NCBI RefSeq assembly: GCF_014268595.2
Contig: NZ_CP077091.1
Location: 4,942,001-5,006,000 of the forward strand
Origin: Pseudomonas hamedanensis
Lineage (GTDB): Bacteria > Pseudomonadota > Gammaproteobacteria > Pseudomonadales > Pseudomonadaceae
Length of the DNA stretch: 64,000 bases
Direction of reading: 5' to 3'
In this document: positions 1,625 through 13,537 of the stretch, piece by piece
How the letters are laid out: each line of letters starts with the position of its first letter
Numbering within the stretch: the stretch's first letter is position 1
Position numbers and translations under genes: made by a program
The notes under the pieces: model-generated
Database searches by the model: none
What the model was told of the DNA's origin: nothing
What the model saw: only the letters and a program-made list of their open reading frames with translations

Positions 1625-1700
<76 letters not shown>

Positions 1701-1703
1701 AAA

Positions 1704-1779
1704 TGGCGTCCCCTAGGGGACTCGAACCCCTGTTACCGCCGTGAAAGGGCGGTGTCCTAGGCCACTAGACGAAGGGGAC
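1704..1779 (-). tRNA. tRNA-Glu(TTC)
   Basis: A 76-nt tRNA with encoded CCA. The minus strand begins GTCCCCTTCGTCTAG and the anticodon loop contains TTC. It is separated from the following tRNA-Gly by 3 nt and is identical to the copy at 1962-2037. Confidence 0.97.
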
Positions 1780-1883
1780 ACGCTACCCGGAACACATGGT
1801 GTGTGTTTCGGTGTCCAGATCCGCCTCCGAAGAGTGGGTTCTGGTTTCACTCAGCCCCGCCCGAAAGCAGTGCTGTTTAAAAT

Positions 1884-1959
<76 letters not shown>

Positions 1960-1961
1960 AC

Positions 1962-2037
1962 TGGCGTCCCCTAGGGGACTCGAACCCCTGTTACCGCCGT
2001 GAAAGGGCGGTGTCCTAGGCCACTAGACGAAGGGGAC
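1962..2037 (-). tRNA. tRNA-Glu(TTC), promoter-proximal copy
   Basis: Identical to the tRNA-Glu at 1704-1779 and first in the transcription unit. It lies about 60 bp downstream of a strong sigma-70 promoter (2099-2127). Confidence 0.97.
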
Positions 2038-2090
2038 ACACTACAACATTCACTCCCTGCCGCGTTTCGCTGTGTGCTTTACGCTGCAAG

Positions 2091-3222: not shown

Positions 3223-3254
3223 GTGGGCGACGGAATTGACGCAGCAGTAATCCG

Positions 3255-3505
3255 AAGCCGCCATCGCGAGCAGGCTCGCTCCCACAGTTTGGGGCGGTGT
3301 ACATCTGCAAGAAACAGGTCGGCTGTCAGGCCGCCTTCGCTGGCAAGCCAGCTCCCACAGGGATTGCGGGTATCCGGGAGAAATGGGGTGACTGTGACGA
3401 CGCCATCGCGAGCAGGCTCGCTCCTACAGTTTGGGGCGGTGTACATCCGCAAGAGACAGGTCGGCTGTCAGGCCGCCTTCGCGAGCAAGCTCACTCCCAC
3501 AAAAA
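3255..3505. repeat. REP-based tandem array, 142-bp period
   Basis: REP hairpin cores (TCGCGAGCAGGCTCGCTCC and variants) alternate with the segment GTACATCTGCAAGA, ACAGGTCGGCTGTCAGGCC. The segment TACATC recurs at 3300 and 3442, exactly 142 bp apart. The same unit with the same period recurs three to four times at 12.6-13.1 kb. No coding function; open frames here are chance readings of the repeat. Confidence 0.85.
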
Positions 3506-3566
3506 AGCAAAAGCAACGCAACGCAACGCAACGCAAACCAGTCCAGTCCCTCGCGGCGAAGCCGCC

Positions 3567-3919
3567 CCACTCAACACAATGAGCGTTAGCTCGAGTACCG
3601 CTCTTGATCGTGGAGCCCGTCGGAAGGCTGAGCCCAGGGATTGATCCGGGCGTGGGAGCGCAGCGACCGTTTGGCGCAGCCAAACACAGCGAGAGGAGGT
3701 GCAGCGAAGCAAACCGGAGACGCTGCGCCCGGATCGATCCCGGAGCGAAGGAACCCCGAGCCCCAGCGAGCGGGCCGAACGTCAGGGCAAAGCCTTTTGG
3801 TTCCTTTTTGGCGTCTGAAAAAGGGACTCGCCGTAAGGGCGAAACCGCCAGCCGCAACACCGCAAAAACGGATATTCACCCAAAACCCCAAAAGCCTGGT
3901 CGGCCCAAAGGCCGCCAAG
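3567..3919. repeat. Long structured intergenic repeat, copy 1
   Basis: About 350 bp that match 13128-13537 almost along their whole length. It starts with CCACTCAACACAATGAGCG and ends with GGCCCAAAGGCCGCCAAG, directly at the stop codon of the chemoreceptor gene. A 105-nt domain (3637-3741) is closed by a 13-bp stem. Inside it are an 8-bp stem (GCGCAGCG / CGCTGCGC) and a terminal hairpin at 3669-3685. A second hairpin sits at 3803-3824. Four CAACG units lie just upstream at about 3514-3534. Short open frames in it look like chance readings of a dispersed repeat. Confidence 0.85.
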
Positions 3920-5887
3920 TCAAAGCCGAAAATGCCCAACCATGGACTTCAGCTCAACCCCCAACTGCGCCAGTTCAACACTGGAAGCCGCATTCCCGCG
4001 CATCGCCACAGAAGAATGATCCGCACTCGCCCGAATACTGGTGACACTGCGATTGATCTCCTCGGCCACCGAACTCTGCTCCTCCGCCGCCGCAGCAATC
4101 TGCTGATTCATCTGCTGAATCAACGACACCGCCGCCGCAATGCTGCCCAGCGCACTCTCGGTCTGCAAGGCATCGCTGACCGCCAGCTTCACCAGCTCGC
4201 CACTGCTGCGAATCTGCTGCACCGACGACTGCGCCGCCGCGCGCAAGGCACTGACCAATCGCTCGATCTCCTCGGTCGACTGCTGCGTACGCCGTGCCAG
4301 CGCGCGAACCTCATCAGCCACCACGGCAAAACCCCTGCCCTGCTCCCCGGCCCGAGCCGCCTCGATCGCCGCGTTCAACGCCAGCAGGTTGGTCTGCTCA
4401 GCGACACTCTTGATCACTCCAAGCACCGTACCGATATTCTGGATTTCGGCGCTGAGGCTTTCGATACTGGAACTGGCCGAGGTGGCCGAATCGGCCAGTT
4501 GCTCAATGCGCTCCATGCTTTGCCGCACCACCTGCTGACCGCTCTCGACCTTGCCCTCGGCGGTCTGTGCAGCCTGCGCCGCTTCTTCGGCATTGCGCGC
4601 AACGTCATGCACGGTCGCGGTCATCTGATTCATGGCCGTGGCCACTTGCTCGGTTTCTTCCTTCTGACTGCTGACTTCCAGATTGGTCTGCTCGGTGACC
4701 GCCGACAGCGATTGCGCCGAACCGGCCAAGCGCTCGATACCCGCCTGCAAGCCGCTGACAATCGTGCCCAGACCCGCGCCCATCTGCTGCATCGCCAACA
4801 TCAATTGGCCCATCTCATCACGGCGGTTCACCTCAACCGTCGCCGTCAGATCCCCGGCCGCGATCTGCTGCGCCACCGCAATCACATGGCGCAATGGCGC
4901 GACGATCAAGCGTGTGATGACCCATGCAGCGATCAACCCGACCAACAGCGCCAGTGCCGAGGAAGCGATGATCAGCAGGGTGTTTTTCTTCAGCTCGGCT
5001 TGCATCGCGGCATCCTCGGCGACATAGGCCTGGTTTACCCGGTCCACCACTTGCGCGGCACGCTGATGCAGTTGTGTGTAAACCGTTTTTTCCTGTGCCA
5101 GCAAACCGGTGTACTCCGCCAGTTTGTCGTTGAATCCGGCAATGTGTCCCGACACTTCATTGAGCACGGTCAGATAGCCCTCATCCTTGACCGTGCTTTT
5201 CAGCGCTTCGGCCTGCGCCTGTGCCTGAGCGGCCTGTTCGATGTTGCCTTCGCCGGCGTTATCGGCGTCGCCCTTGCGGCTCTGATCGAGACGGACATGC
5301 GCTTCGTTCATCGCTTGCAGCATCAGCCGCGATACCTGGCTGACCTGATTCGTCTGCTCGATGAACTGGGCGCCGTCCTTGCCCTCTGTGTCTTTCAAGG
5401 TATAGGCACCATCATCGGCCAGCCCGGCTTGCAGTACATCGAGATTGTTAGCCACGCTGGACACCGACCAACTAGCCATTTCCAGCGCGAGATCCTTGGC
5501 CTGGCTCAGCGAGACGAACTCGTCAAACGCCTTGCGATAGGCCCCGAGCGCTTGCTCGACATCGGTCATCACCGGCACATTGGCCGGCGTCTGCGCCTTG
5601 AGTTCACCGGCCAGGGCCACCAGTCCGTCCACACCTTCACGCAAGGCGTCGGCGGTTTTCGGGCTGCCGCGCAAGGCATATTCCTGTTCGAGCAGGCGCA
5701 CCTTGAGCAAACCGCTATTGAGCGACGACATCTGCTTCAGCCCATCGAAACGCAGGCTGATGGTTTGCAGGGACCAGACGCCAATGGCTGCCACCAGTGC
5801 GGTCAGCAGTAACACCAGCACAAAGCCGATACCCAGTTTGGTTGCCATACCGAGGTTGGCGAAACGTCCTTGCACGGCGGAAATCAT
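3920..5887 (-). CDS. Methyl-accepting chemotaxis protein, HBM sensor type
   Basis: A 655-residue chemoreceptor that relays ligand binding to CheA/CheW at the inner membrane. TM1 spans about residues 14-36. A periplasmic domain of about 260 residues, long and helical, has the size of the bimodular HBM domain known from P. putida McpS. TM2 is near 303-323 and is followed by a HAMP domain. The signalling hairpin contains [20 protein letters not shown] and [12 protein letters not shown] around residues 495-530. The start at MISAVQG is preferred; an upstream in-frame extension of 29 residues is not membrane-like and has no family support. The ligand is unknown; TCA intermediates are known for McpS. 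Its stop codon directly abuts the long repeat at 3567. Confidence 0.9.
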
Positions 5888-12507: not shown

Positions 12508-12598
12508 TGTGAGAGCGAGCCTGCTCGCGAAGGCATCGGTTGATTCGATATCTCTGTTGGATTTGACGGCCTCTTCGCGAGCAGGCTCGCTCCCACAC
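12508..12598. repeat. REPIN (face to face)
   Basis: TGTGAGAGCGAGCCTGCTCGCGA and its near complement about 45 bp later form a hairpin directly after the kinase stop codon. It begins a 1046-bp gene-free block made entirely of repeats (12494-13539). Confidence 0.85.
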
Positions 12599-13105
12599 TT
12601 GAAATGAGTACATCTGCAAGAGACAGGTCGGCTGTCAGGCCGTTTTCGCTGGCAAGCCAACTGCCACAGGGACTGTGTTTATTTTCGAAGCAAATGGTGT
12701 CTGTACCGGCGCTATCGCGAGCAGGCTCACTCCTACAGTTTGGAGCGGTGTACATCTGCAAGAGACAGGTCGGCTGTCAGGCCGTTTTCGCTGGCAAGCC
12801 AGCTTCCACAGGGACTGTGTTTATCTTCGAAGAAAATGGTGTCTGTACCGGCGCTATCGCGAGCAGGCTCACTCCTACAGTTTGGAGCGGTGTACATCTG
12901 CAAGAGACAGGTCGGCTGTCAGGCCGTTTTCGCTGGCAAGCCAGCTGCCACAGGGACTGTGTTTATTTTCGAAGCAAATGGTGTCTGTACCGGCGCTATC
13001 GCGAGCAGGCTCACTCCTATAGTTTGGAGCGGTGTACATCTGCAAGAGACAGGTCGACTGCCAGGCCGCCTTCGCGAGCAGGCTCGCTCCCACAGAGAAG
13101 CAAAA
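12599..13105. repeat. REP-based tandem array, exact 142-bp period, about 3.5 units
   Basis: The segment TACATCTGCAAGAGACAGG occurs at 12609, 12751, 12893 and 13035, each 142 bp apart. Units differ by only a few bases. Each unit holds one REP core (GCGAGCAGGCTCACTCC), a variant TTCGCTGGCAAGCCAGC hairpin and a spacer with GGGACTGTGTTTAT. The same unit with the same period is seen at 3.3-3.4 kb. The units are too long and REP-derived to be CRISPR repeats. Confidence 0.92.
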
Positions 13106-13127
13106 GCAAAGCAAACCGCGTTAGCTC

Positions 13128-13537
13128 CCAACCACTCAACACAATGAGCGTTAGCTCAAGTACCGCTTTTGCCTCTCACCACTCAACACGATGAGCGTTA
13201 GCTCGAGTAAGGCTCTTGATCTTGATGCACGGCGCCCGTCGGCAGGCTGAGTGGAGGGATTGATCCGGGCGTGGGAGCGCAGCGACCGTACGACGAAGTC
13301 GTACACAGCGGAAGGAGGTGCAGCGAAGCAAACCGGAAACGCTGCGCCCGGATCGATCCCGCAGCGAAGGCACCCCGAGCCACAGCGAGGGGCCGCACGT
13401 CAGGGTAAAAGGCCTTTGGTTACTTTGGGCCCCCAAAGTCACCCGCCGTCAGGGCGGAACCCTGAGTAGCCGTTACCGCAGCAACGGATATGTACCCCCA
13501 AAAAACCCAAAGCCTGGCCGGCCCAAAGGCCGCCAAG
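13128..13537. repeat. Long structured intergenic repeat, copy 2
   Basis: Matches 3567-3919 in order and orientation. It carries an extra duplication of the segment CCACTCAACACRATGAGCG (13128 and 13180). The 105-nt stem-closed domain is at 13256-13360 with its terminal hairpin at 13288-13304. A second hairpin is at 13422-13439. It ends two bases before the stop codon of the permease gene, just as copy 1 abuts the chemoreceptor stop. Confidence 0.85.

Follow-up and report, generated by a model that had tools for sequence, protein, structure and literature searches.

The window, the whole 64,000-nucleotide stretch of Pseudomonas hamedanensis DNA analysed here, contains two copies of an element of about 350 bp that is built from two structured modules, one of which (module A, about 135 nt) occurs genus-wide. 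We define forward as the window's minus strand, which is the coding strand of the gene whose end adjoins each copy. Read this way, the element begins some tens of bases past a stop codon (the genes ending at 3920 and 13540) and runs through a G/T-rich sequence with ATATCCGTT, module A, module B, a variable stretch and REP sequences. Its parts and immediate surroundings are as follows.

3240..3510, strand not given: REP cluster adjoining copy 1, with REP cores near 3265, 3407 and 3480
3567..3636, plus: variable end of copy 1, on the 5' side of the structured strand, with a CACTCAACACAATGAGCGTTAGCTC unit and a GCTCTTGATC stretch (own-genome alignment)
3637..3741, plus: module B of copy 1, closing stem 3637-3652/3726-3741 (pair counts over 108 copies)
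3658-3664 (GCGCAGC), 3669-3685, and 3704-3710 (GCGAAGC) inside 3687-3725, plus: GNA-triloop hairpins of module B, copy 1
3744..3875, plus: module A of copy 1 (R1 match G000:C1:4945744-4945875, plus; module A covariation)
Within module A of copy 1, plus: P3, hairpin P2 (3800-3827), hairpin P1 (3828-3842) and the 3' motif AACGGATAT
3895..3919, minus: hairpin CTTGGCGGCCTTTGGGCCGACCAGG of copy 1, next to the stop codon of the minus-strand gene that ends at 3920
12575..13075, strand not given: tandem array adjoining copy 2, made of 3.5 copies of a 142-bp unit (94% matches) that each include REP sequences
13128..13255, plus: variable end of copy 2, with two CACTCAACACRATGAGCGTTAGCTC units (sequence and alignment)
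13256..13360, plus: module B of copy 2, in which hairpin 13288-13304 contains TACGAC-GAA-GTCGTA (nhmmer match 13491-13256, 235 bits)
13363..13491, plus: module A of copy 2, with P2 near 13422-13439 and P1 at 13443-13457 (R1 match G000:C1:4955363-4955491, plus)

The variable end of copy 1 is joined to REP sequences further left, and in the own-genome alignment hairpin CTTGGCGGCCTTTGGGCCGACCAGG adjoins many copies, not all. The letters quoted in the first-pass annotation at 3670-3684, 13289-13303, 3637-3741 and 13256-13360 are exact, module B measures 105 nt in both copies as it had stated, and the near-complete alignment that it described is recovered between 3401-3919 and 12994-13537 (551 columns, 78% identity, E = 9e-126), a match that begins in the flanking REP sequence. 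The second hairpin that it singled out (3800-3827 in copy 1, near 13422-13439 in copy 2) does differ in letters and keep its pairing. Both of its two copies are present, but the genome contains about 30. Elsewhere in the window (1625-2037), a tRNA-Gly(gcc)/tRNA-Glu(ttc) pair occurs twice in succession, both times with the same Rfam scores, and seems to have been duplicated in tandem.

Copies of the element are mostly found just past the 3' end of a gene, often between convergent genes: the left gene is directed at the element in 23 of the 30 own-genome copies, and 19 of the 30 have a convergent context, compared with 9 of the window's 38 gaps of at least 50 bp. This placement would suit a terminator or insulator at gene 3' ends, with the fold stopping antisense read-through or with P1 and the T-rich arm of P2 ending transcripts of the adjoining gene, and P1 of copy 1 with its T-run is terminator-like on the gene's strand. 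However, the scan gave one such site against 1.7 in shuffled sequences, P1 of copy 2 is not among the terminator-like sites, and 11 of the 30 own copies have a non-convergent context. Silby 2009 (PMC2718517) describes P. fluorescens intergenic repeats as a class as often tail to tail, and argues that such repeats may do least harm in a gap between convergent genes. We consider a role in termination improbable. At one own-genome locus (L005), a PhrS sRNA gene (1859-2074, minus strand; RF01673, 170.9 bits) ends next to the left end of the copy, and the 'left gene' there is therefore an sRNA.

A small-protein coding sequence is scarcely credible and was rejected: open frames of 115-146 amino acids overlap copy 1 and a 723-amino-acid frame runs on into the antisense of the next gene, but gene prediction with Pseudomonas codon usage called nothing in the copies examined, and hairpin lengths vary by frame-shifting amounts. 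A sigma-70 scan found no promoter-like site on either strand of either intergenic region, and no transcript of the element was seen.

Distribution and mobility

The 6.05-Mb own genome gave 31 BLAST matches, one of them a 40-base fragment, and 30 were fetched; a covariance model of module A, with 150 of 2280-2788 candidates scored per genome, likewise finds 30 copies. In seven other complete genomes, scored in the same way, the model finds 28 copies in G019 (leaving aside 11 weaker matches), 17 in G005, 15 in G010, 30 in G075 (leaving aside one partial match), 13 in G113, 40 in G017 and 22 in G062. Copy 1 has BLAST matches in 22 of 38 genomes, namely its own and 21 of 24 other Pseudomonas, and none in 13 genomes of other genera or in the plasmid and phage records. 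When GTDB genomes are scanned for exact 45-base matches, all 88 stretches returned are labelled Pseudomonas, including P. koreensis, P. neuropathica, P. crudilactis, P. viridiflava and P. fluorescens isolates; no copy among these 88 is named as Pf0-1, SBW25 or Pf-5.

Both loci are polymorphic between species. The element is present at the copy 1 locus in 14 of 30 genomes, the own included, and absent from 16, and at the copy 2 locus it is present in 16 of 30 (12 essentially full, 4 partial) and absent from 14, in calls that include four loci ending at contig ends (L157, L171, L190 and L202), one with masked bases (L188) and one that keeps a remnant (L169). That about half of the examined orthologous gaps are without the element is a further point against a terminator. 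GGTTTTG-like repeats in variable number precede ATATCC at left ends (for example, L157, L159 and L162), and hexamers like AAAAGC or GATCAA follow the other end of the element in several species. A LINE-like reading based on variable (GGTTTTG)n and (AAAAGC)n tails was dropped, truncated copies being few.

In one genome (G015), the element rides in a MITE. Eleven copies lie inside non-coding units of about 540-1130 bp with terminal inverted repeats, which are located in T or A tracts mostly of terminator-like hairpins. The unit ends (GGTTCTTCACGAAATCCCGG and CCGGAATTCCGTGAACAACC) recall those of the ISL3 family. Three units have unambiguous exact 8-bp target duplications (TCAAAAAA, TTTTTTAT and ATAAAAAA); in others, which lie in pure T or A runs, the duplication is ambiguous. 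L140 lacks one altogether, and for L146 the right end was not found. A search of this genome for an autonomous transposon with the same ends gave 29 end-like sites, no two of them facing each other 1.2-3 kb apart, with a pattern for which a backward control also gave 2 matches. The window copies and some others have no terminal inverted repeat or target duplication by eye.

REP sequences occur within 400 bp on the right of 28 of the 30 own copies and on the left of 1 of the 30. They adjoin one end of the element and do not form the unit of two inverted REPs in one hairpin that defines a REPIN. Five copies in G019 (contig C1, near 985149, 2165791, 2211615, 2413908 and 4896136) are interrupted within module A by about 1.5 kb, and at the copy 2 locus of L160 there is a break in the P2 hairpin loop; together, these suggest an insertion sequence that aims at the P2 hairpin. 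A piece of about 16 bases, CCGGAATGCCGGCCCAG or its complement, is found in the P2 loop of L016, L132, L165 and L223, from different species, and is possibly an excision scar.

Conserved structure and its two forms

Folding of lone sequences is weak evidence by itself (z = -1.24 for copy 1 minus, -2.83 for copy 1 plus and -1.71 for copy 2 minus); comparison across copies establishes the structure. As the first-pass annotation had proposed, copies were collected and aligned, which left 108 unique near-full copies from 208 profile hits once short or identical rows were removed. Clean pair exchanges are common in this alignment: columns 35-49 are TA in 70 copies and CG in 36, columns 50-80 GC in 79 and CG in 25, columns 154-230 GC in 59 and CG in 34, columns 198-210 TA in 61, GC in 27, AT in 13 and CG in 4, and columns 199-209 CG in 61 and TA in 47. 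Parsimony on a tree of the copies counts 140 double changes over eight helices, a figure inflated by block exchange between copies. On the pairs common to both strand predictions, parsimony counts 141. The two covarying hairpins that had been noticed from the window are real, and are only two among several covarying helices. The letters of module B differ among species and its closed multi-hairpin arrangement is kept.

For module A, 65 sequences were compared genus-wide (set A1: 259 rows, of which 184 full, reduced to 68 representatives and then to 65 by leaving out three G015 rows). Paired cells make up 91.4%, compared with 38-47% in slid structures. None of 500 shuffles reaches this fraction, the number of double-change cells (176 versus 67 ± 9 in shuffles) or the covariation score (0.231 versus 0.116), in a control that leaves relatedness in, so that the excess over shuffles is inflated by kinship. 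Two of five covariation measures are hardly above shuffles; 14 pairs have a double change, compared with 11.3 in shuffles (13 of 500 as high), and further pair types show no excess (36 versus 36.8; 389 of 500 as high). RNAalifold with default scoring returns only 10 pairs on the same alignment. Selection on secondary structure, which the first-pass annotation had thought the simplest reading, is supported by the 141 double changes together with a covariation score above that of 500 of 500 shuffles.

In other Pseudomonas, the place of module B holds TwoAYGGAY (RF01731). With up to 13 candidates scored per genome, this family is found at E ≤ 0.001 in at least 134 of 199 genomes and above the gathering score in at least 119; none was found among the candidates so scored in G011, G016, G019 and the own genome, G000 (13 of 164 for the last). 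Module A lies directly beside RF01731, on the same strand, in 11 of 12 fetched loci (the best locus in each of 12 genomes), one of the 11 neighbours being only a 43-base piece. The Rfam search that had been suggested for the window returned no RF01731 anywhere in it, nor did copy 1 with its surroundings match that family at E thresholds of 5 and 10; other families, such as group II introns, gave no match either, the window yielding four tRNAs above threshold and chance matches below. Both forms place hairpins inside one closing stem in the same position beside module A. The window's element is a sister form of TwoAYGGAY, and a non-member by the Rfam threshold.

The two forms are distinguished by their loops. 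In the window's type, module B loops are GNA, closed as c-GNA-g and with the middle base free, in 108, 107 and 106 of the 108 copies, and the P1 loop is c-GTNA-g in nearly all, with GTCA, which is not GNRA, in 14 of 108; copies in G024 also have the GNA form by eye. AYGGAY loops are absent from the module B hairpins of these 108 copies, and the exposed GGA of a CsrA/RsmA decoy is missing from the three loops, where GGA occurs once each as a GNA variant. In the TwoAYGGAY type, the two hairpin tips have GGA in 63 and 62, and CANGGANG in 52 and 45, of 63 unique sequences, which were chosen for such loops, so that the counts are partly by selection (of 107 module A hits, 11 were too short, 21 lacked the loop letters and 75 had them, 63 of these being unique). 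These GGA loops look like RsmA/CsrA sites. CsrA-family proteins favour hairpins exposing ANGGA (PMC7366521). A 2010 paper counts TwoAYGGAY among probable RNAs (PMC2864571), and by 2014 it was a family of unknown function for which a CsrA role had been proposed from motif matches (PMC4333381). In the window's clade, RsmA binding seems unlikely because the loops have become GNA triloops.

Preserved strand and replication polarity

G.U mispairs are tolerated in RNA or a single strand and A.C mispairs are not. On the pairs common to both predictions and read on forward, A.C events exceed G.U events in the window's type (43 versus 23), in the TwoAYGGAY type (34 versus 7) and in module A (21 versus 14), the last being a weak asymmetry when taken alone and from a set that has sequences in common with the window's type. 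Event counts on common pairs are a fair measure of strand, and we preferred them because, by cell counts, the sign of the asymmetry varies with the strand used for structure prediction. Since A.C events are in excess on forward, the preserved strand is its reverse, that is, the window's plus strand, antisense to the upstream gene. Consensus energies of the plus reading versus the other strand are -170 versus -151 (108 copies), -64.5 versus -56.7 and -110 versus -104, and RF01731 hits fall on the strand favoured by the mispairs. The first-pass annotation had left RNA and cruciform side by side; a fold of RNA (or of one-stranded DNA) fits better, and the cruciform is weakened because it needs both strands alike, whereas the mispairs lean to one.

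The asymmetry also bears on a neutral repeat whose arms change together by template switching or gene conversion, with no selected fold. Such a process would explain why P1, P2 and P6 have 111 double changes and 15 A.C or G.U intermediates, and why the 108 copies have few, recurring stem haplotypes, the pattern expected of block exchange. However, no strand asymmetry should arise in this way, yet one is counted, and it does not accommodate the preservation of GGA or GNA loops or of the closed layout of module B while its letters vary among species. We regard it as very improbable.

Of the 107 single copies in eight genomes, 97 are co-directional with replication and 10 are opposed to it, in a count in which copies shared by descent are not independent. 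Replication arms were set from dnaA and dif, with the replication end taken half-way from dnaA in G019, G075 and G062, in which dif had no match. The count leaves out 12 matches (11 weak or split in G019 and one partial in G075), all co-directional when assigned by hand; the opposite single of G019 (2213966) faces a left-out arm (2213287). All eight genomes also contain inverted arm pairs (5 in G000, 5 in G019, 3 in G005, 2 in G010, 5 in G075, 3 in G113, 17 in G017 and 4 in G062), mostly 600-1000 bp long, the shortest 225 and the longest 1253.

The polarity is not borrowed from gene direction, because flanking genes (predicted genes of at least 300 bp) are co-directional in only 73 of 154 cases (33/67 in G000, 22/51 in G019 and 18/36 in G005), and a by-product of gene direction was rejected on this ground. 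Of the six own singles with a left gene in the other direction, five still follow replication, which also counts against a terminator tied to that gene. Copies 1 and 2 of the window are both counted as opposite to the fork; of the five opposite own singles, four fall within 4.93-5.40 Mb. In 7 of 7 relatives checked, however, the copy 1 locus is co-directional (arms again set half-way from dnaA), and G000 has it at a different distance from dnaA, an indication of a later rearrangement.

Polarity of this kind could also reflect a fold that acts as single-stranded DNA, in which the hairpins of one strand are recognised by an enzyme during transposition or repair coupled to the fork, the element being a REP-linked DNA parasite without an RNA role. 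The 97:10 ratio, the REPs at one end of 28 of the 30 own copies and the lack of a promoter-like site in both intergenic regions are consistent with this, as are the loops themselves: GNA and GTNA loops form unusually stable DNA hairpins, and the GTCA found in 14 of 108 P1 loops is outside GNRA. However, in co-directional copies the strand favoured by mispairs is the leading-strand template and not the exposed lagging-strand template, and the GGA loops of the sister type match the site of an RNA-binding protein. We know of no well-known single-strand transposition scheme that a fold on the leading-strand template fits simply, and we consider a DNA-level role possible but rather unlikely.

Proposed function and comparison with known systems

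We favour, with a probability of about 0.5, a non-coding, dispersed, historically mobile Pseudomonas element, the preserved strand of which acts as RNA and the spread of which is coupled to the replication fork. The RNA would be read from the element toward the 3' end of the neighbouring gene, with two or three stable hairpins presented by module B. Both hairpins of the TwoAYGGAY form expose a GGA of the RsmA/RsmE (CsrA) type, so that the many copies together could titrate the regulator; in the window's clade, the GNA fold would presumably serve the element's own upkeep or spread. Coupling to replication forks may have set the polarity, REPs at one end would make a REP/RAYT route possible, and in at least one lineage the element appears to have been moved by a terminal-inverted-repeat transposase into T or A tracts, mostly of terminators. 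A more specific proposal, a genus-wide fork-polar mobile element with an interchangeable RNA head, in which, in many species, tens of copies with two GGA hairpins each form a distributed RsmA/RsmE decoy, whereas the GNA head of the window's clade has lost this link, is speculative, and we hold it to be doubtful.

The replication polarity of single copies is new here; among the open-licence papers searched, we found no report of a TwoAYGGAY link or of replication polarity for such an element, and no literal sequence words of the element. Once TwoAYGGAY is placed in a multi-copy Pseudomonas element whose second module, strand, position and polarity are defined, its function becomes testable, and a replication polarity that is indifferent to the orientation of adjacent genes hints at the route by which such elements get into genomes. 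The distributed-decoy proposal, if true, would give the orphan TwoAYGGAY RNA both a genomic vehicle and a function.

The first-pass annotation had left undecided whether the element is one of the described P. fluorescens intergenic repeats. This is plausible, and among those repeats it probably matches families R26, R178 and R200 of Silby 2009, a comparison by size and description only. Excerpts of that paper (PMC2718517) give R26 as 352 bp with 20 copies in Pf0-1, R178 as 101 bp with an 11-bp internal inverted repeat and R200 as 320 bp; size and copy range agree, whereas covariation, strand, a TwoAYGGAY link and replication polarity are not mentioned in those excerpts. Like MITEs, the G015 unit has terminal inverted repeats and 8-bp duplications, in contrast to the window copies, which lack such ends by eye. 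As in REP/REPIN and RAYT systems, REPs are involved, here adjoining one end of nearly every own copy, and compensatory changes have been reported in REPIN hairpins (Bertels and Rainey 2011, PMC3116915); unlike REPINs, the element has a core of about 250-350 bp, several different hairpins and no REP doublet. RsmY/RsmZ-type CsrA decoy RNAs share GGA at hairpin tips with the TwoAYGGAY type only, and differ in that our element is dispersed in many copies and, in the window's type, has no GGA loops. RF01731 itself shares with the window's element its place beside module A, its strand and a closing stem around two hairpins, whereas the window's module B carries GNA triloops and an extra short hairpin in place of AYGGAY loops, and module A lies outside RF01731.
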